Assembly (NCBI GenBank): GCA_001768565.1
Contig: MEOE01000015.1
Span: 1-64,000, forward strand
Origin: Bacteroidetes bacterium GWF2_33_16
GTDB lineage: Bacteria; Bacteroidota; Bacteroidia; Bacteroidales; UBA12077
DNA length: 64,000 bases
Direction of reading: 5' to 3'
Shown: one piece after another, positions 13,219 to 57,589 of the stretch
Layout of the letters: each line of letters opens with the position of its first letter
Position numbering within the stretch: position 1 is the stretch's first letter
Position numbers and translations under genes: made by a program
Notes under the pieces: generated by a model
The model's database searches: none
Seen by the model: the letters and a program-made list of their open reading frames with translations, nothing else
Told to the model about the DNA's origin: nothing

Positions 13219-16167
13219 TTGATAAAATTTGCTAGATATACTATTTTATTAATTCTTTTCAGTTTTATCATCCTAAATGGTAATTCTCAGATAAAAAGCA
13301 TTGGAATACCCAATATTACAAACTTCTCAAGACAAGATTATAATGCCAGCACACAAAATTGGGCAGCACTTCAAGACAAAAGAGGGATACTATATTTTGG
13401 AAATAACGAAGGATTACTTGAATTTGACGGTGTTCATTGGAGATTAATACAAATGCCAAATACCTCAGCAGTGCGTTCCATTTGCACAGATAAATCAGGT
13501 ACAATATATGTCGGAGCTTTTGGAGAATTTGGATATTTAAAAACTGGAGAAAACGGCAAATTAAAATATATTTCTTTTGTTGAATTAGTGCCAGATTATC
13601 TTAGAAACTTCGGTGATATTTGGAAGATATATGAAACTGAGAATGGCATAATTTTTCAATCCTTTTCAGAAATTTTTCTTTATAAAAATAATACCCTTAA
13701 AGTAATCGCACAAAAAAGATTCTTCCATTTTAGTTTTCTTGTTAATGGTGAACTTTATATTACAGAAAAAAATAAAGGTTTATTAAAGCTTAAAGACGAA
13801 AAACTAATACCCATAAAAGGTGGTAAAATTTTCGATAACAATATTTGGACAATGCTCCCTTTCAAAGACAACAGAATATTGATTGGAACAACTAAAAATG
13901 GACTTTACGTACTTGAAAATGACTCGGTAAATGTATGGAATGTACCTTCAAACCCGTTCTTGAAACAAAATCATATTTATTGTGCCACAAAAGTAAAAGA
14001 CTATTTTGCTATTGGTACAATTCTTAATGGTCTTGTTATAATTGATGAAAAAGGCATACCAAAGCAGCATGTTAATAGAGATAAGGGATTACAAAACAAT
14101 ACAGTACTCAGTATTTATGCCGATAATTCTGATAATTTATGGTTGGGCCTTGATAATGGTATAGATTATGTGTTGACCAATAGTCCTTTTACAAATATCG
14201 TGAACGAAAGCAAGATTGGGGCTGGATATGTATCATATATCTTCAAGAACAAATTATATTTAGGTACGAACCAAGGGTTATTTTACAAAGAATGGAGTGA
14301 ACCAGAAAATCCATTAAAAAACAATCTTGACTTTAAGATGATTGAAAATACCCAAGGACAAGTATGGAGCATATATGAATTTAACAATAAACTTTATTGT
14401 GGACATAATAATGGCACATATGTTATTGATAATGAAGAAGCCAAGCTTATTTCTGAGAACATGGGTGGATGGCTACTTCTTAATGTGCCTGACAAAGAAA
14501 ACACAATGCTTCAAGGAACTTATGCAGGAATATTAAAATACGAAACCACAAATAATATTTCATGGAAAATAACTAAAATAGGTGATTTTAATGAATCTTG
14601 CCGAATGATTGAGCCTTATTTGGGAAAAGACAATTATACGCTGTGGATAAGCCATGTATATAAAGGAATTTATAGAATAGACCTAAACAAGAATTTGGAT
14701 AAAATTAACCAACTTCACTTCTATGATTCCTTAAATGGATTAACCACAAACTTTGGTAACAATGTTTTACGATTTAACGATGAAATAATTTTTACAAATA
14801 AAACAGGCATTTATAACTACAATGAAGATCAGCAAAGATTTGAGTTAAATAATGAACTTATGCGATTATTTGGTGAAAATGGTAGTGTAAGGAAGATATT
14901 TAAAGATAATTATAGTCATTGGTGGTTTATTCAAGGCAATAAAATGGGAATGATAAAGAAGCTAAGCGATGGCAGTTATAAAGTTGATCGCGAGATATTT
15001 AATTCTTTTTCAGGCAACTTTGTTAGAGATTTCGAACATTTATATCCATATAATGATGAAAGTGTTATAATCGCAACTGAAAATGGTTTTGCACATTTTA
15101 GTAAGAATTTTATTAAAGAAACAGATATTCCATTTAATACATTAATAAGATCTATTAAAACAACGAACGATAGCATTATCTTTGATGGAGCATTCGCAGA
15201 TAGCAGCGGGAATATTATAAATACACAGTTAAATAATCAAATCCAATATCTACCATTTAGATATAACAACATTAAAATTGAGTATTCCTCAACTTACTAT
15301 GAAAACATTAAAGATATTGTTTATAAGTATTATTTAGAAGGATTTGATCATGAATGGTCGGAGTGGACCAAAAGAACAGTCAAGGAGTATACAAATCTAA
15401 AGGAAGGAAACTATGTGTTTAAGGTTAAAGCAAAAAATGTTTTTAACATTGAATCTGAGGTGTCATCTTACAAATTTGTAATTCACCCGCCTTGGTATAG
15501 ATCATTAGTTGCTTATATTGCCTATGTTTCTTTGATTATTTTAGTAACATGGATTACTATAATAACCATTAGAAAAAGAATAGAAATTGAAAAAAGACGT
15601 TTAAAATTAAAACAGAAAAAAGAATTACATCAACAAAAGATTAATCACAAAAATGAAGTTTTATCGGCTCAACAGGAAATTGTAAAGTTGAGAAATGAGA
15701 AATTGAGAATCGAAAATGAAAAAAACAAGGCAGAAGTCGAGTTAAAAACGAAGGAGCTTGCAAGCTATGCAATGCAAATTACTCAAAAAAATGAAACATT
15801 GTATAGTATGAAAGAACAGCTAGTTTATATCTCTAAAAAGATTAATCCTGATGCACAAAAGTATTTACAAAAATTAATTAAAAGCATAGAAGAAAAAACC
15901 AATAAAATGGAAGACTGGGAAAAGTTTGAAGGCTACTTTGACCATGTTTATGAAAATTTTACAAAACGAATACGAGAAAAATATCCAAATTTAACTCCAA
16001 ACGACATTAAACTCTGCGCATATTTACGAATGAATATGACCACAAAAGAAATTGCGCCTCTACTTAATATCTCAGTAAGAGGAGTTGAGATAAGCAGATA
16101 CAGATTAAGAAAAAAACTCAACCTGCCACAAAATGAGAATCTTATAGATTTCTTAATGAATTTATAA
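13219..16167 (+). CDS. Transmembrane one-component regulator: Reg_prop propeller, Y_Y_Y, TM, coiled coil, LuxR-like HTH
   Basis: A 982-residue regulator that starts at TTG; the signal sequence (YTILLILFSFIIL) begins immediately after. The periplasmic part (about 25-690) is built of two-component-regulator propeller repeats (GILYFGNNEGLLEFDGV, DNLWLGLDNGID). A Y_Y_Y domain (about 690-758, KYYLEGFDHEWSEW) follows, then one membrane helix (about 762-786), a long coiled coil, and a C-terminal HTH (about 915-982: TTKEIAPLLNIS, VEISRYRLRKKL). This is the sensor layout of hybrid two-component PUL regulators, but no HisKA, HATPase or receiver domain is present, so signalling must pass directly to the HTH. 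It lies between two operator-bearing genes and is the natural controller of the glucan locus. The same C-terminal module ends the PiT fusion at 54750-56498. Confidence 0.93.
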   Translation: MIKFARYTILLILFSFIILNGNSQIKSIGIPNITNFSRQDYNASTQNWAALQDKRGILYFGNNEGLLEFDGVHWRLIQMPNTSAVRSICTDKSGTIYVGAFGEFGYLKTGENGKLKYISFVELVPDYLRNFGDIWKIYETENGIIFQSFSEIFLYKNNTLKVIAQKRFFHFSFLVNGELYITEKNKGLLKLKDEKLIPIKGGKIFDNNIWTMLPFKDNRILIGTTKNGLYVLENDSVNVWNVPSNPFLKQNHIYCATKVKDYFAIGTILNGLVIIDEKGIPKQHVNRDKGLQNNTVLSIYADNSDNLWLGLDNGIDYVLTNSPFTNIVNESKIGAGYVSYIFKNKLYLGTNQGLFYKEWSEPENPLKNNLDFKMIENTQGQVWSIYEFNNKLYCGHNNGTYVIDNEEAKLISENMGGWLLLNVPDKENTMLQGTYAGILKYETTNNISWKITKIGDFNESCRMIEPYLGKDNYTLWISHVYKGIYRIDLNKNLDKINQLHFYDSLNGLTTNFGNNVLRFNDEIIFTNKTGIYNYNEDQQRFELNNELMRLFGENGSVRKIFKDNYSHWWFIQGNKMGMIKKLSDGSYKVDREIFNSFSGNFVRDFEHLYPYNDESVIIATENGFAHFSKNFIKETDIPFNTLIRSIKTTNDSIIFDGAFADSSGNIINTQLNNQIQYLPFRYNNIKIEYSSTYYENIKDIVYKYYLEGFDHEWSEWTKRTVKEYTNLKEGNYVFKVKAKNVFNIESEVSSYKFVIHPPWYRSLVAYIAYVSLIILVTWITIITIRKRIEIEKRRLKLKQKKELHQQKINHKNEVLSAQQEIVKLRNEKLRIENEKNKAEVELKTKELASYAMQITQKNETLYSMKEQLVYISKKINPDAQKYLQKLIKSIEEKTNKMEDWEKFEGYFDHVYENFTKRIREKYPNLTPNDIKLCAYLRMNMTTKEIAPLLNISVRGVEISRYRLRKKLNLPQNENLIDFLMNL

Positions 16168-50965: not shown

Positions 50966-51736
50966 TTACTTAATTTTAAATTTATAAAGCATTGATTGAG
51001 AGTCACTGACAATATACAATATACTATCTGAAGGATTAAATGCAATTCCTTCTGGATTGGTTACAGGTATATTATAACTTTCAATTACTTGTCCTTGCAA
51101 AGAGCATTTGTTTACAGTTGCCGAAAGATCGCTTACAATCCATAATTGCTGATTTATATTATCAACACAAATACCTGAATAATCCTTGGCAAATGTTAAT
51201 GTATAACTAGCAAGCAAATTAAAATTTTTATCGGTTTCAATCAACAATGAAGGATTCATCTCATTAATTATATAAAAATGCTGATTAAATGTAGCATATG
51301 AAATACCTTCTAATCCCTCATTTTCAACATTTTGCTCTACTGACATAGTTTTTTCTAAAATAAACGATCCTTGTAAATCGAGTTTTACAATTTTACGCAG
51401 ACGCTCTTCAGCAACATACAAGAATTGATTATCAACAAAACAAACACCTTCCAGATCATTTCCGGTAAATTGCAACTCAGCTAATGTCCGGCCTGATGTT
51501 GATATTTTATACACTTTTGCACTATTATCGCTTACTGTATATAAAACACTTGTTGTAGATCCAAAACATAAATCTGAAGTTTCCAGAATATCAAGTTTAT
51601 GAGATTCTATTGGTTTAAGTATAGCATAGTTGTCATCATCTGAATCACTACAAGATCCAAAAAACAAGATCATTGCTGCAATTAACAATACATTTTTTGA
51701 AATGAAACCGCAATTATTTATTAATTGCGATTTCAT
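50966..51736 (-). CDS. SdiA-regulated-type beta-propeller lipoprotein
   Basis: 256 residues from the ATG at 51736. The frame extends to a TTG at 51766, but the lipoprotein signal (VLLIAAMILFFGSC) works from the ATG. The mature part has repeated propeller blades (LEGVCFVDNQFLYVAEERLRK, LEGISYATFNQHFYIINE, PEGIAFNPSDSILYIVSD), matching the SdiA-regulated family, a six-bladed propeller of unsettled function. It is envelope located. Tight spacing with the lamin-tail gene upstream suggests co-expression in the phosphate row. Confidence 0.88.
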   Translation of the reverse strand: MKSQLINNCGFISKNVLLIAAMILFFGSCSDSDDDNYAILKPIESHKLDILETSDLCFGSTTSVLYTVSDNSAKVYKISTSGRTLAELQFTGNDLEGVCFVDNQFLYVAEERLRKIVKLDLQGSFILEKTMSVEQNVENEGLEGISYATFNQHFYIINEMNPSLLIETDKNFNLLASYTLTFAKDYSGICVDNINQQLWIVSDLSATVNKCSLQGQVIESYNIPVTNPEGIAFNPSDSILYIVSDSQSMLYKFKIK

Positions 51737-51771
51737 TCTTATAAATCCCTGTTTAGAATCTCTCAATTACT

Positions 51772-53331
51772 CTAAATATTATTTGTTGTACCTTTTGTCT
51801 CAGCCGCAGGAACTACCCACAAATCAGCAGCGTCTTTCTTACGAGCCACAAGAGGAACACCTGGCCAATTAATCTTTAATAATTGGTCAACAATAACATC
51901 CGATGCATTTACCAGTGTAATATCTTCACCTGATGATGATATTCCGAATTGTCCCTGAGGAGAACCCGATCCTGTTTCGATTAAATAAAAACCTCCAGCT
52001 GCAATTGAAGTACTCGCAGGAATAACGTATGCAACACCTATGCCTCCTGAATCATATACTTTGTATCCACTAATATCAATTGAAGCAGTTGTTCCATTAT
52101 ACAATTCAATAAAGTCATAAGGAACTCCAGATGCCTGAATCTCATTAATCACCAATTGGTTTAACAAAGGAATTGGTGCAACTGTAATACTTGGCCAGGT
52201 AGATCCGTCATCATGGTCAAAATCACCAATAATCTCTCCAACAGCATTAAGTTCCTCAACGGGATAATATGATTTTACAGATGAATTGTCAGTAGCTCTG
52301 ATGTAATATCTAATTACAGATTCATCAGCTTGTCCAGGAATAACACCAGTCCAAACATCTCCAGTTAGGGTTAAGTCAACTGTAATTTTATTTCCAGCAA
52401 CCTCATCATCAACTAAATAATATAAACGAACTGCATCAACTCCGCTCCTGTCGTATACATCAACAGTTACAGTAATATCTTCAAATGGTGATGGATTTTC
52501 GTTTGACAATTCAACCTCATTAAAAATAGCAAGACCATCAACAACAGTAAATGTATAATAATCTGCATCTGCAGGTTTAAAAGTAGTCATTAAACCGGTT
52601 TTATCAGTAGCTTCGATATAATATTTAACTGCATCACCTTTGGTTAAAAGCGGAAGAACGATTGTGTATTCACCTTGTCCCATTGGAGCCATGCTTGTAT
52701 AATATACATCTGTTGAAGTCTGCATCCATAATTTTACATCACTAATACCTGAAGCATCAATAACAACGATATCATACTGAAAACGTTGGTTATCGTTAAC
52801 CATTCCGGTAACAATGACATCAGCCTCGAAAGCAGGAGCTTCATTTGTATTGCTATTTTCAGTTCCTTTTGTAAGGTTTGCCAAAGCCCATGTATCGCTA
52901 CCATCTGGTATTCTCGAATAAGATAACCCAACTGGAAGAGCTGGCAATTCGATATTATCGACTACTTCACCAAGATCATTTTCCAGGTAAATAAGATCTC
53001 CACCACTGGATAAACCAAAACCGTTTTCACCTGCATCAACAACGATTACAAAGAATCCCTTAGGTTGGATAATCGAACCCGCAGGAAATGATTTTGGAGT
53101 TTTTGAGGGATTATCATATATTTTATAATTGCTTATATCAATAGCTTCGTCAGAACTATTATAAAGTTCAACCCAATCCGGGTCTCCCTCTACACCTCTG
53201 GAATAGGCTTCATTAATAAATATGGCTGATTCGGTTATTACTGTCTCATCAATAAAAACCTCATCTTCTACGCAACTTGTAAAGCTAAATGCTACCAGTG
53301 CTATAATTAATATAAATAGATATTTTTTCAT
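51772..53331 (-). CDS. Lipoprotein with two lamin-tail domains
   Basis: A 519-residue lipoprotein (signal ending in FSFTSC). A first lamin-tail domain (about 36-155, IFINEAYSRG...DWVELYNSSDEAIDIS) and a second (about 395-510, LVINEIQASG...DFIELYNGTTASIDIS) flank Ig-like modules (about 160-385). Extracellular bacterial lamin-tail domains are often attached to nucleases and phosphatases, but no catalytic domain is seen here, so it may be a surface binding or scaffold protein. It follows the porin gene by 30 bp and belongs to the same minus-strand row. Confidence 0.9.
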   Translation of the reverse strand: MKKYLFILIIALVAFSFTSCVEDEVFIDETVITESAIFINEAYSRGVEGDPDWVELYNSSDEAIDISNYKIYDNPSKTPKSFPAGSIIQPKGFFVIVVDAGENGFGLSSGGDLIYLENDLGEVVDNIELPALPVGLSYSRIPDGSDTWALANLTKGTENSNTNEAPAFEADVIVTGMVNDNQRFQYDIVVIDASGISDVKLWMQTSTDVYYTSMAPMGQGEYTIVLPLLTKGDAVKYYIEATDKTGLMTTFKPADADYYTFTVVDGLAIFNEVELSNENPSPFEDITVTVDVYDRSGVDAVRLYYLVDDEVAGNKITVDLTLTGDVWTGVIPGQADESVIRYYIRATDNSSVKSYYPVEELNAVGEIIGDFDHDDGSTWPSITVAPIPLLNQLVINEIQASGVPYDFIELYNGTTASIDISGYKVYDSGGIGVAYVIPASTSIAAGGFYLIETGSGSPQGQFGISSSGEDITLVNASDVIVDQLLKINWPGVPLVARKKDAADLWVVPAAETKGTTNNI

Positions 53332-53361: not shown

Positions 53362-54738
53362 TTAAAAATCAACTTCAAATCTGATGGAAAGAATGCTGTA
53401 ATCTTCACCAGCAGAACCATTAGAATCTACAACATTTCTTGGATTTTTGGTTAATTCACCATTCTCATCATACCCAACAAACAGTTTGTTTTTTCCATTT
53501 GCCCAACGGTCGTGATTCATGTAGATGTAGTTAAGCATAATCTTAACATTATTGTTAATATAATAGTTTAAGCCAAGGGTATAGCCTTCGCCAGAACCAC
53601 CCATTACCTGATCAACATCGCTATTGAGATTCAAATAATCATAACGCAAAGCTAATTCGACATCGCCCCAGTCTTTACCTCTTGTTGGCTGAGTAAATTC
53701 AGCTGCACCTTTATCATAGTTATATTTACCACCAAATAACAAATATGTTCCAAACACATAAAATCCATCAAAGTTTTCTGTTGGCAGATCTTTATCTTTT
53801 ACTACGCTGCTCATCATATATTCTCCCTGTAATCGAAGTCCCTCATAATATCCTGCAAACTCTAATCCGGTAAGGGTAGCATAATCAACATCGCCCATAA
53901 GGTCAGTATCCATGTATTTTTTTCTATTGATAGATGTAAGAGATCTTGTGCTATATCTTAAAGTATAAGGAACTTCGGCATCGGTTTTTGGAGTGCGATA
54001 TGAATAAGCTCCACCAAGATGAAGACCCATTCTATTATCTTTATGAAAAGGCATAATAACTACTTTTCCTGTATATGAATAGCCTTCGTCCATACCAACG
54101 TCTTTGTTATTATCCTCTGAAAAGATTCTTTCTTCTAAACCACCAACTTCTTGGAAATGCACACCCCCCATTGCAAATAACCAGTTTTTACTGTATGATG
54201 CAGCTACACCAATATGTCGTGAAGGGGCAAAAGTAGCAACTGCATTTGGTCGCTCAATAAAAGTAAGGTAACGCGAAGTTGTTGTTGCTTCCATAGAAAA
54301 ACCTTCTTTAAAATTACCAACTTGTACCTCGAGTCCGGCATCGTTAAAATATTTTACGTATGCATCTTTTAATTCGAGCTCTGAGTTTGATATATCCATA
54401 TCAAATTCGCCATACCAGTTTTTAGCAAACTCAGCTTTAACAGCAAATCGTGCTCTTCGGATTGAAGTACCATTACCAATATCATTATAGGTATCTCCAT
54501 AAAACATAGCTCCATCTACCTGCACGCGGGCATCATACCATATCTTATAGCTTTTGTCTTTAGCTTCAAGAACAAGGGTCCCATTTCGCTCTTCAGGCAG
54601 CAAAGGTGTTCGGTTTACCTTAACTCCATATTGGTTGTAACGGGTAGTAGTATCATTTTCCTGTCCGTTCACTGAACTGCTCCATAGAAAAGGTATCCCC
54701 AGGAACAAAATCATTAAAAAACTGTTTACTTTTTTCAT
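53362..54738 (-). CDS. Phosphate-selective porin O/P family outer-membrane protein
   Basis: A 458-residue outer-membrane barrel. A signal peptide (ending near SVNGQ) is followed by barrel strands typical of the OprO/OprP family: FYGDTYNDIGNGTSIRRARFAVKAEF, YGEFDMDISNSELELKDAYVKY and GFSMEATTTSRYLTFIERP. It ends in a C-terminal Phe (SIRFEVDF), as outer-membrane proteins usually do. The family forms anion- or phosphate-selective channels. It starts 11 bp downstream of the PiT fusion stop, which is strong operon evidence for a phosphate role. Confidence 0.93.
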   Translation of the reverse strand: MKKVNSFLMILFLGIPFLWSSSVNGQENDTTTRYNQYGVKVNRTPLLPEERNGTLVLEAKDKSYKIWYDARVQVDGAMFYGDTYNDIGNGTSIRRARFAVKAEFAKNWYGEFDMDISNSELELKDAYVKYFNDAGLEVQVGNFKEGFSMEATTTSRYLTFIERPNAVATFAPSRHIGVAASYSKNWLFAMGGVHFQEVGGLEERIFSEDNNKDVGMDEGYSYTGKVVIMPFHKDNRMGLHLGGAYSYRTPKTDAEVPYTLRYSTRSLTSINRKKYMDTDLMGDVDYATLTGLEFAGYYEGLRLQGEYMMSSVVKDKDLPTENFDGFYVFGTYLLFGGKYNYDKGAAEFTQPTRGKDWGDVELALRYDYLNLNSDVDQVMGGSGEGYTLGLNYYINNNVKIMLNYIYMNHDRWANGKNKLFVGYDENGELTKNPRNVVDSNGSAGEDYSILSIRFEVDF

Positions 54739-54749
54739 AGAATAATTAA

Positions 54750-56498
54750 TTAAAGGTTACTAATAAATTTTAATAAGTTATCTTCTTTTTCTAGTTTCAA
54801 TTTCTTTTTTAGCCTGTATCTTGATATCTCGACACTCTTTGGCGAAATATTTAATAATGATGAAATCTCTTTGGTAGATAAATTTAATCTTAGCAATCCT
54901 GCCAAACGTTTATCCATTTCTGTAAGTTTAGGAAATGATGTTTTCAATTTTGTGTGAAAATCTTTGTGGATATCTTCAATCTGAGTATAGAATTCCTTTT
55001 TCTCTTTCGAAAAAGACATTTTTTGCCTTATCATTAGAGACAAGTCTTTAAGTCTTTTAGTCCGATCATCGTGATTATTTATCTCAATAATTTCGTTTAA
55101 TCCAGTTGATATTTTCTCTAGAAAAGCATGCTGTTCATTAATATTAAATGCAATATCCATAAACTCTTTCCTTTTGGCCTGAAGCTTAATATTAAGAGCT
55201 TCATTTTCAACTGCTGCAGCCCTCATTTCCAAATCATTCATCGCTTTTTGCGATTGATAAAGCTGATTTTGTTGAATTAGAATATCTCGTTCCATTTTTA
55301 AACGGAGCTTTTGTTGTCTGAAAATGAAGAATATAAATACCACAATAAGTAAAGCTATAAGAATAATAATTCCTGGCAGTACCATATTTATTCTCGTAGA
55401 GCTATCTACCAACTTTTCAGTATCAATACTTCTTACAGCCTGATCCAATTTTTCCAGTTTTGATGGAAACCCAAAAGTTCTCTCAATAATAAAAAGAAAA
55501 GCAGTTGTAAGTAGTCCGGCACTTAACGGTGTAGTTATCCAGCTCAATCCAATACCAGCAAGAGTTTTAATTTCAATTTCGCGTGTACCTTTAACTATTC
55601 CTATACCTATTATAGCACCAATAACTATTTGAGTACTCGAAACAGGGACCAAAGGAATTTGAGGTAATCCGAAGGATCCAAGAATATTAGAAAGCCATAA
55701 TGATGAAAATACAAATAAAACAATTGCTTGCACAAGATGAACAACGACTGCTGTTTCTGGCACAAGAGAGAAAGTTCCACTTCCTGTTTCAATAGCAGCC
55801 TTTTTGCTAAAGCTATAAATACCTATCGAAATGGAGATTCCACCTAGTAGAAAAAGTATTTGTAATCCATCAAGGGTAAAGATTCCAAAGTTTATTAAAA
55901 GAGCTGGTGCATAATTGGAAAAAACACCAATTACATTTCCAATATTATTGGCTCCTAAGTTAAAAGCAGCAAGAGCAATAGCTATAACTAAGGTAATTCT
56001 AAGATAAAAATCGAGTTTAATTACATGTATATTCGACTTATTAATAAACCATCGTATAAGAATAAACAGAAGTGCACCAACAATTACTCCAAAAACCGGG
56101 GCGAGAATCCATGCTAATACAATCTTAGATATTATACCTAAATTAATATTACCCTGCGTAAAAAGGCTCCATCCAACAATTGCTCCAACTATGGACTGAC
56201 TAGTAGAAACTTTAATATTAAATCTGGTAAAAACAAGAACTACTAATGCAGCACTTAGTACAACAATAAATGCTATCGCAGGTTCAGTAATATTTCCGAG
56301 ACTTTGTATTGTTGCAGTAGTGCCTCTACCTTGAAATATTGCACCAATAATTATTAGTACACTTGCTATTATCGCTGCTTTTTTAAAATTGAGCCTTTGT
56401 GAACTAACTGAGGAGCCAAAAAGATTTACCGTATCCTTTGATCCAAGCAACCATCCAAGAAATAACCCACTTGATATTATTACTAAAATAATAAACAT
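54750..56498 (-). CDS. PiT-family phosphate transporter fused to a coiled coil and LuxR-like DNA-binding domain
   Basis: A 582-residue single reading frame. Residues 1-345 are a PiT-type transporter with both inverted repeats: GSKDTVNLFGSS (19-30) with STSQS (98-102), and GANNIGN (182-188) with PVSSTQ (285-290), matching the family GANDxAN and VSSTH signatures. After an extra helix (372-393) comes a coiled coil (394-515) and an HTH (524-570; LSTKEISSLLNIS, VEISRYRLKKKL). The last 180 residues align with the glucan-locus regulator. A DUF47 gene lies 3 bp upstream and a phosphate porin gene 11 bp downstream. The simplest reading is a phosphate transporter or transceptor that binds DNA while in the membrane. 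No frameshift is needed for the fusion. Confidence 0.93.
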   Translation of the reverse strand: MFIILVIISSGLFLGWLLGSKDTVNLFGSSVSSQRLNFKKAAIIASVLIIIGAIFQGRGTTATIQSLGNITEPAIAFIVVLSAALVVLVFTRFNIKVSTSQSIVGAIVGWSLFTQGNINLGIISKIVLAWILAPVFGVIVGALLFILIRWFINKSNIHVIKLDFYLRITLVIAIALAAFNLGANNIGNVIGVFSNYAPALLINFGIFTLDGLQILFLLGGISISIGIYSFSKKAAIETGSGTFSLVPETAVVVHLVQAIVLFVFSSLWLSNILGSFGLPQIPLVPVSSTQIVIGAIIGIGIVKGTREIEIKTLAGIGLSWITTPLSAGLLTTAFLFIIERTFGFPSKLEKLDQAVRSIDTEKLVDSSTRINMVLPGIIILIALLIVVFIFFIFRQQKLRLKMERDILIQQNQLYQSQKAMNDLEMRAAAVENEALNIKLQAKRKEFMDIAFNINEQHAFLEKISTGLNEIIEINNHDDRTKRLKDLSLMIRQKMSFSKEKKEFYTQIEDIHKDFHTKLKTSFPKLTEMDKRLAGLLRLNLSTKEISSLLNISPKSVEISRYRLKKKLKLEKEDNLLKFISNL

Positions 56499-56501
56499 TT
56501 G

Positions 56502-57149
56502 CTAAATTGTTCGTTTAATAGCCATAATAGAAAGTAAATCAGCTGCTTTCTGAGCAACGTCAGACAATATTTCGATATGTAGGGTGAAATAACGTAAGTG
56601 AATTTTCTCACTTAGCTTCAATTGAATCATCTCCTGAAATACACGTCTTTTAATTGAAAGGGCTAACTTGTCAGCCTCCTTTTCATAAAGGTATACTCTA
56701 TGCAAATGTTCTTTTACAGATTCAGGATCTCTAAAATATGCCCTGGCGGCGGGAATTAATGAATCAATGGCAAAAACAGAAAGCTCTGATAGTTTTATTA
56801 AATCTTGATTAAGTTCGCTAGGAATTAAAGGTACTTCAACATCAAACTCAATTAAGTTTGATTTTGCCAAATCTATAATATTGTTTAGCTCTTCTAAAAG
56901 TTTTAAAATATCACCTCTAAGTTGAGGCATTAGAGACTGTGTATATAAGATATTCTCTATCTCTCTTTTCTTAATATCAGCATCTGAGGATAAATTGGCA
57001 ATTGTTTTAAGGTTATCCTCAAAATTTTCTCTTTTTCCTTGAAGATAATTTTTAACACCTTCTTTAAATATAAGGCTTCCTTGATCAATTAAGGTTAGAA
57101 ATTCCTCAATCAGATCAATTGACTTTTTAGCATTTTTAAAACTAAACAT
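56502..57149 (-). CDS. DUF47/PhoU-like phosphate transport regulator
   Basis: 215 residues from the ATG at 57149; the frame runs to a TTG at 57158, but MFSFKNAKK is the better start. It is an all-helical protein of the DUF47 (PhoU-like) family, which usually partners PiT transporters. Family features include the ILYTQSLMPQLRGDILKLLEELNNIID segment and EKEADKLALSIKRRVFQ, plus the C-terminal DVAQKAADLL. It is thought to sense or gate transport from the cytoplasmic side. It lies 3 bp upstream of the PiT fusion and is the first gene of the row. Confidence 0.93.
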   Translation of the reverse strand: MFSFKNAKKSIDLIEEFLTLIDQGSLIFKEGVKNYLQGKRENFEDNLKTIANLSSDADIKKREIENILYTQSLMPQLRGDILKLLEELNNIIDLAKSNLIEFDVEVPLIPSELNQDLIKLSELSVFAIDSLIPAARAYFRDPESVKEHLHRVYLYEKEADKLALSIKRRVFQEMIQLKLSEKIHLRYFTLHIEILSDVAQKAADLLSIMAIKRTI

Positions 57150-57158
57150 AGATTTCAA

Positions 57159-57589
57159 ATTTTAATTTCTAAAAGTGGTACCAAATTACAATATTATCTT
57201 TATACTGTTTTTGCTTTATAGTGTTCTCATTATTTATCCATTTCTTTTGTAGTGTTATTTATTTTGTTATTTATTTTATTTTTAATTTCTTACCTTCTAT
57301 TTGTAGTTTAATATTTAAGATCAAATTCAAACTTGTAGTATTTCTGTAGTATTTTTTTAATTAAAAATACTCAACTTGTAGTAATTAAATTCAAAAATAA
57401 AATTCCAAAACAACTAGATTTTTTATGTTAAATAATAAAATTAGATTCAAATAAGTATTTCGTTCTCATTTTATCAACGCAGGATTTGTAATTGATTTAT
57501 TGAATATATTATGCGGCGAATTACAATTTTCAACATCATAGATGAAGAAATAAGGAGATGTATTAACTATTTATATAATTATCACAAAA
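57159..57589. other. Control region of the phosphate operon, no gene seen
   Basis: A 483-bp AT-rich gap. A minus-strand TAATATTG (complement of 57189-57196) is a possible -7 element, about 40 bp before the DUF47 ATG. Several TTGTAGT-type heptamers are scattered from 57248 to 57383 (listed separately). The region 57400-57580 has no recognisable content. Confidence 0.5.
57334..57383. promoter_or_regulatory. Putative operator D: TGTAGTA repeats, 11-bp period
   Basis: TGTAGTA occurs at 57334-57340 and 57345-57351, exactly 11 bp apart, and again at 57377-57383 (32 bp further). Near-copies TGTAGTT (57302-57308) and TGTAGTG (57248-57254) lie nearer the gene. The heptamer shares five of seven bases with TGATGTA of the glucan locus. 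The predicted DNA-binding helices of the two regulators are nearly identical, so a related site is expected. Confidence 0.5.

Follow-up and report, generated by a model that had tools for sequence, protein, structure and literature searches.

The window analysed here, a stretch of 64,000 nucleotides from Bacteroidetes bacterium GWF2_33_16 (contig MEOE01000015.1), contains a gene cluster with the order DUF47, PiT-HTH, porin, lamin-tail protein and SdiA/phytase-like protein. PiT-HTH designates a protein in which a phosphate transporter of the PiT type continues, in the same reading frame, into a LuxR-type helix-turn-helix (HTH) domain. From upstream to downstream, the features are:

57248..57350, minus strand: predicted operator array, with ACTACA at 57345-57350, 57302-57307 and 57248-57253
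56502..57158, minus strand: DUF47/PhoU_div gene (Pfam), first gene of the operon
54750..56498, minus strand: PiT-HTH fusion gene, 582 aa, intact open frame with ATG start
55470..56498, minus strand: PiT transporter domain of PiT-HTH, residues 1-343 (PHO4, PF01384; Pfam and Foldseek)
54753..55469, minus strand: linker, membrane helix, coiled coil and LuxR-type HTH of PiT-HTH, residues 344-582
53362..54738, minus strand: Porin_O_P gene (phosphate-selective porin family, OprO/P-type), 11 bp downstream of PiT-HTH
51772..53331, minus strand: gene for a lamin-tail-domain protein, next in many fused loci
50966..51766, minus strand: gene for an SdiA-regulated/phytase-like protein, also part of the operon and found close to some other fused loci

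Judging from its relatives, the DUF47 gene likely starts not at the listed TTG but at the ATG three codons further in, at 57149.

The fusion in GWF2_33_16 is confirmed. The first-pass annotation had read the gene as one unbroken protein consisting of PiT, membrane helix, coiled coil and HTH, and this reading holds: there is a single 582-aa frame, it matches both PHO4 and GerE, and the structural model agrees. The PiT core comprises approximately residues 1-342 and is followed by a linker (approximately 343-371), a helix (373-471) and the HTH (approximately 525-570). In Pfam, PHO4 matches residues 19-330 with 170.6 bits (cut-off 33.7) and GerE (PF00196) matches residues 540-571 with 25.5 bits (cut-off 23.5). 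Among four fused relatives scanned for GerE, L123 and L101 pass, L035 is slightly below the cut-off and L059 gives no match. The best NCBIfam match of PiT-HTH is a sulfate permease model, which at 46.8 of 400 bits is far below its cut-off.

An AlphaFold2 model built on a 40-row alignment of fused proteins (mean pLDDT 81.8, pTM 0.61) contains the PiT helices, a continuous helix 373-471 that makes up the extra membrane helix and the coiled coil, and HTH helices at residues 527-566, the linker residues 349-366 being the sole stretch with a pLDDT below 50. Foldseek assigns the model to the PiT fold (TmPiT, 6l85; E 6.7e-11, TM-score 0.64 by target length). It also returns FixJ with a probability of 0.98-0.99, but since the E-value of this match is only about 0.45, the HTH assignment is based on Pfam and on conservation. 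R537, K543, K554, S555, R560 and R562 are conserved in 39 of the 40 fused rows, and K554, S555, E557, R560 and R562 in 37-39 of them.

The orientation of the protein can be judged from the charges of its loops. Averaged over the 40 fused proteins, loops 1-9 contain 2.98, 0.33, 1.68, 0.35, 5.45, 0.23, 2.15, 0.35 and 3.08 K+R, the linker before the extra helix contains 3.45 K+R and 4.85 D+E, and the stretch past this helix 4.2 K+R and 1.88 D+E. Since the loop charges alternate, the positive-inside rule would have the PiT core end outside the inner membrane and the added helix return the chain to the cytoplasm, where the coiled coil and the HTH would be located. A cytoplasmic HTH is thus supported by loop charge, and the coiled coil presumably dimerises the protein.

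The first-pass annotation had also considered that homologues might lack the fusion. This was checked: a relative from the same genus has the identical architecture with 40% identity over 616 aligned columns, and 61 of 109 non-redundant rows are fused. These 109 are the rows with readable C-termini in a combined set of 114, from which five cut by contig ends were excluded; besides the 61 with an HTH (L118 is counted here), 23 have no addition, 13 a membrane helix with a tail and 12 a long extension. Because HTH regulators crowded the whole-protein search of the phylum, which scored three candidates per genome that were mostly such regulators, this search was not used for fusion counts, and these were made with the PiT part alone. 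A PiT-only profile (E ≤ 1e-50) found the PiT subfamily in 39 of 393 genomes of the host's order, Bacteroidales (41 matches, 40 of which were read), and 26 of these 39 genomes carry the C-terminal module. Among the 26 are L037, where the contig ends before the HTH, L059, whose HTH is degenerate, and L048 (G492) and L172 (G784), each with one in-frame stop (TAA and TGA) in the PiT domain. In the host's family, PiT matches at E ≤ 1e-20 are limited to 2 of 25 genomes, each of them fused and from the host's genus. Fused rows also bear the names of Lentimicrobium, Dysgonomonadaceae, Salinivirgaceae, Lutibacter, Mariniflexile and Maribacter. A search of viral contigs gave 281 pattern matches, none of them a relative.

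Most of these relatives are metagenome bins, and together with the two in-frame stops this might lead one to regard PiT-HTH as an artefact of assembly or annotation. The chance of this is negligible, since many independent assemblies show the same fusion, as do two named flavobacterial strains, Lutibacter flavus DSM 27993 and Mariniflexile maritimum M5A1M; the scan of contigs from named genomes covered the best 80 of 561 relatives and is not a basis for prevalence.

The operon of DUF47, PiT-HTH, porin and lamin-tail protein is conserved. Where the flanking DNA suffices, every fused row has DUF47 upstream (59 of 59), 54 of 56 have a Porin_O_P relative downstream, and in 29 of 31 the lamin-tail protein comes next. 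Among unfused rows, the porin is present in 4 of 21 without any C-terminal addition, in none of the 12 tail-only rows with sufficient flank and in 9 of 11 with a long extension.

The signature segments of PiT-HTH are GSKDTVN, STSQS, GANNIGN and VSSTQ. TmPiT, a chain of 402 residues with the same PiT fold and without the HTH that PiT-HTH adds, has STTH and GAND where PiT-HTH has STSQ/SSTQ and GANN, so that Asn takes the place of Asp in the second half and Gln that of His in both halves. The first-pass annotation had taken the SSTQ and GANN variants as a sign of reduced transport. This argument fails because Q101 and N185 are invariant in 33 of 33 PiT domains of the subfamily, fused and unfused, and Q290 is conserved in at least 90% of them; the variants are common to stand-alone PiTs and therefore not special to the fusion. 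It is nonetheless conceivable that the PiT domain has lost transport and is a pure phosphate receptor, as the departure from GAND/STTH and the presence of a second PiT elsewhere in the own genome might suggest. We consider this rather doubtful, since unfused members share the variant residues, many PiT positions are invariant across the 40 fused rows, and the porin gene next to PiT-HTH in 54 of 56 fused loci is what one would expect of an uptake operon. On this view PiT-HTH would have retained transport.

The observation that is new in this analysis is an array of heptamer direct repeats in the promoters of fused operons. The repeated heptamer was first spotted by eye upstream of DUF47, and word counts followed; they cover 56 of the 61 fused and 44 of the 48 unfused rows, namely those with a DUF47 match and distinct upstream DNA of at least 200 bp. 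CTCTACA is present in 24 of the 56 fused loci (shuffle mean 0.6), CACTACA in 25 (1.3) and CTATACA in 20 (2.4), which places these words near the top. Their common form CWMTACA is found as direct repeats, usually in two or three copies (none in 6 loci, one in 10, two in 25, three in 14 and four in 1); the coding strand holds 1.89 of them per fused locus, the opposite strand 0.14 and shuffled DNA 0.16. The three unfused classes have 0.05, 0.09 and 0.18 per locus (shuffles 0.06, 0.09 and 0.02), the value above its shuffle being that of the long-extension class. The sites concentrate near -200, -157 and -100 relative to the DUF47 start and the distances between neighbours are most often 43 and 53-56 bp; as the best period tried was 10.9 bp (81 distances), most of them face the same side of the helix. 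With C[TAC][CA]TACA, at least two copies within 280 bp before DUF47 are present in 43 of 56 fused loci versus 0 of 44 unfused ones, and none of the 15 unfused loci with a porin match anywhere in the locus has two. The three-site geometry, searched with a relaxed site, is present in 15 of the 56 fused loci (shuffle mean 0.0) and in 0 of the 44 unfused ones.

In the window, the predicted sites are TACTACA, AACTACA and CACTACA, 43 and 54 bp apart. Only one of the three fits CWMTACA, TACTACA and AACTACA do not, and a search of the own genome for a CWMTACA triple gave no match. The pattern ACTACA-N36..38-ACTACA-N47..50-ACTACA occurs once in the 4.33-Mb genome, upstream of the PiT-HTH operon; since it was written from the sites of the window, its uniqueness is a result and its presence is given by construction. 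In 100 shuffles of the window it was found 0 times. The nearest relative of PiT-HTH, L066 from a genome of another family (G709; 58% over the PiT part), carries ACTACA at the same spacing of 43 and 54 bp.

A TAnnTTTG box, which we take to be the Bacteroidota -7 element, follows the proximal site at 21 of 29 sites (shuffle mean 0.24), 65-71 bp from the start of that site, and is absent from 6 of 32 entries, the window among them (near-duplicates and the window are counted here). Sites upstream of the promoter would suit activation better than blocking. A Pho box is a tandem repeat of 11 bp, and the heptamer was also considered as half of an inverted repeat or of such a tandem box; both were rejected, as the flanks hold almost no information. 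The positions 11 bp to each side are nearly uninformative, and the heptamer is therefore not a tandem Pho box.

Loci collected after the motif had been fixed show the same association of array and HTH. Of five fused loci, two are usable and new (L163 and L166) and each has three sites, and the four readable unfused loci have 0, 1, 0 and 0; left uncounted were L165 (same contig as L066), L164 (96 bp upstream, one site), L171 (cut before the C-terminus, no site) and L172 (no DUF47, 139 bp upstream, no site). Genome G531 possesses both an unfused (L043) and a fused PiT (L163), and three heptamers precede the fused operon and none the unfused one. The promoter of L059 contains no heptamer. Four of the 56 fused loci are without C[TAC][CA]TACA in 280 bp, and of these L083, L097 and L123 have an intact HTH, although the start call of L083 is possibly wrong. 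As a side observation, L059 (G707) and its twin L085, which has an identical PiT, also lack the porin (789 bp and 5.3 kb examined, respectively), so that degenerate HTH, missing array and missing porin look like a decay of the whole circuit.

One could argue that the HTH region plays no role at the DNA, and that coiled coil and HTH instead aid assembly or gate the transporter. The lineage of L059, which retains the protein despite a degenerate HTH, might be cited for this. Such a role is very unlikely to be the whole explanation, because HTH residues are conserved in 39 of 40 rows and linked to an array, and because it is the locus with the degenerate HTH that is without this array.

A CWMTACA triple at the spacing of the array is present in 11 of the 393 genomes. 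Three of these triples are located at PiT-HTH operons (G576, G714, G731) and three at regulators composed of TPR, membrane helix, coiled coil and HTH (G581, G644, G782), of which G782 carries a PiT-HTH at another place; the others are three tandem-repeat tracts (G583, G687, G772) and two further cases (G774, G795). A control pattern gave one match (G471) among the matches listed. Judging from the TPR cases, the heptamer may go with this HTH module, and a wider class of regulators may share the operator code. In all three, array and neighbouring target are on opposite strands. With gene names assigned by eye, the TPR-type regulator L150 and its triple are found beside a TonB-receptor-like gene, and L152 and L153 with theirs beside a thioredoxin-like gene.

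The conserved direct-repeat array upstream of PiT-HTH's own operon favours direct control at the DNA, as the first-pass annotation had proposed, and PiT-HTH probably controls its own gene cluster. The heptamers could in principle be bound by a PhoB-type response regulator or another factor, with the fused HTH otherwise employed or a mere passenger. PhoB-like response regulators are present in 24 of 24 fused genomes at E ≤ 1e-40 (0 of 24 pass the PhoB cut-off), and the link between heptamer and HTH is clustered on the tree. Yet two heptamers are found in none of the 44 unfused PiT operons, including the 15 with a porin match, the flanks at 11 bp do not form a tandem Pho box, and the same triple adjoins TPR-type proteins with a related HTH module; another binding factor is therefore unlikely. 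Because the fused loci are kin, the link between array and HTH is based on few independent events: with the window set by hand as array-bearing, there are 2 independent contrast pairs on supported branches and 4 at most, with which a sign test cannot reach 0.05, and the Fisher value of 6e-17 for the array in fused versus unfused loci ignores kinship and is not a probability.

Overall, we propose, with a probability of roughly 0.7, that PiT-HTH is a membrane-tethered one-component regulator that uses a PiT-type phosphate transporter as its sensor and controls its own operon. The HTH would bind the CWMTACA heptamers, spaced by whole helical turns, at its own promoter, and the DUF47 protein together with the conformation of, or the flux through, PiT would set its activity. 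In this way the phosphate supply would be read out on the DNA without a histidine kinase, and PiT-HTH would be expected to activate the operon, most likely when phosphate is scarce. The signal may be phosphate transport or occupancy. A more specific version, in which a working, DUF47-gated PiT symporter reports its transport state to the heptamer array and so sets the expression of its own operon, is held tentatively, at somewhat less than even odds. One molecule may thus serve both as the cell's phosphate gate and as the gene switch controlling that gate.

To our knowledge, the route from the state of a phosphate transporter to gene expression is not settled, even for PhoU and for PitR, the latter of which we take to be a member of DUF47. 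PitR from Staphylococcus aureus works with its cognate Pit transporter, controls PhoPR and affects gene expression, as far as described in the available part of the source (PMC13170248). An accessory regulator with a cognate Pit is also what the DUF47 operon of PiT-HTH may provide. In contrast to PiT-HTH with its attached HTH, the signal of PitR runs through a two-component system; by analogy, a PitR-like signal may act on the fused HTH.

In architecture, PiT-HTH resembles the SusR-like regulators of Bacteroides, membrane proteins with a cytoplasmic C-terminal HTH whose predicted operators are direct repeats 67 or 77 bp apart, that is, by whole helical turns (PMC3878776, PMC6874557, each as far as available). 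Both are from Bacteroidota, have a membrane helix followed by a cytoplasmic C-terminal HTH, and go with direct repeats in helical phase. In PiT-HTH loci, however, the spacings are commonly 43 and 54 bp and the sites two or three, whereas the predicted SusR-like motif has two; moreover, SusR, according to the same partial text, senses sugar in the periplasm and has no transporter, where PiT-HTH has a PiT and a linker of about 30 residues. DadR, HcdR and CadR from Eggerthella lenta are LuxR-type one-component activators of nearby genes with 12 TM (PMC9734109). They share with PiT-HTH a membrane domain of 10-12 helices and a C-terminal LuxR HTH, but they belong to another phylum, and their membrane domain is not termed transporter, MFS or major facilitator in the accessible portion of that paper. 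CbrA, a transporter-kinase and transceptor (PMC13022988), and the SLC5-STAC histidine kinases (PMC7096432) are, in the accessible text, transporters joined to a signalling output as well, with a kinase in place of the DNA-binding domain; in Pfam and NCBIfam scans at E ≤ 1, PiT-HTH has no SLC5 or histidine kinase domain. The earlier statement that no characterised protein has this design thus needs to be narrowed: DadR-type proteins and CbrA come close, and it stands insofar as none of them, to the extent covered by the available texts, has a DNA-binding domain attached directly to a member of an identified transporter family. A literature search, with subscription journals mostly outside its coverage, found no title or abstract on a PiT-HTH fusion.

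Other genes for phosphate control were scanned in 24 of the 27 known fused genomes (G672, G492 and G784 were left out). PhoU above the family cut-off is absent in 20 of these 24 and PstS likewise in 20, so that the Pst-PhoU route is often not evident. In the own genome there are PstS-like matches with 71 and 106 bits (cut-off 206.6) and a PhoU-like match with 119 bits (cut-off 130.25), located approximately 3 kb apart on one contig, and PiT-HTH therefore need not be its only phosphate control. Given the 20 genomes without PhoU above the cut-off, PiT-HTH could be a main phosphate circuit in many Bacteroidota; if the version with a working symporter holds, a kinase-free circuit would replace Pst-PhoU-PhoR there. 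PiT-HTH would also extend the SusR-like regulators from sugar sensing to a transporter. Since transporter, putative sensor, DNA-binding domain and predicted operator occur together, the coupling of transport to transcription is directly testable.

The history of the fusion was examined with trees calculated by a quick method and carrying SH-aLRT support only. They leave out L048 (in-frame stop), L107 (same contig as L035), six identical PiT domains and L037, the latter because its C-terminal end repeats that of L100. In the PiT tree, 43 HTH rows and one cut row form one supported group (group A), and the remaining fused rows (group B), among them the same-genus relative of PiT-HTH, are intermixed with unfused relatives. 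The module tree sets group A apart by a supported branch and group B by a weak one (61); when 18 non-fused modules are included, some of these adjoin group B in the free tree. A single clade of all fused modules is not rejected against this free tree (p-AU 0.57). The sequences fit an old fusion with subsequent losses, and the fused module may alternatively have two origins. In the DNA examined at 11 unfused or truncated relatives, a remnant of an HTH was found in 0 of 11, which is compatible with loss as well as with the HTH never having been gained. The nearest relative, L066, comes from another family and the same-genus relative falls in group B; it is a fair guess that the operon moved horizontally.

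Two related forms were met along with the fused proteins. A clade of PiT proteins in Bacteroidales (L062, L114, L117, L122, L125-L127, L130, L132, L136, L142 and L144) ends in a single added membrane helix with a short, conserved basic tail and no HTH, and represents a distinct form; in six such truncated loci inspected by eye, the following gene showed neither a kinase nor an HTH. In other classes and phyla, PiT relatives carry a C-terminal extension of 140-170 residues without a strong membrane helix, which is possibly periplasmic (L005, L007-L010, L012, L014-L016, L120, L133 and L141), and several of them adjoin a second transporter-like ORF, a DUF47 gene and a porin. The window itself encodes, at 13219-16167 on the plus strand, a Reg_prop/Y_Y_Y protein with a related C-terminal coiled coil and HTH (GerE 22.9 bits, slightly below the cut-off), a module of the same kind attached to an ordinary sensor.
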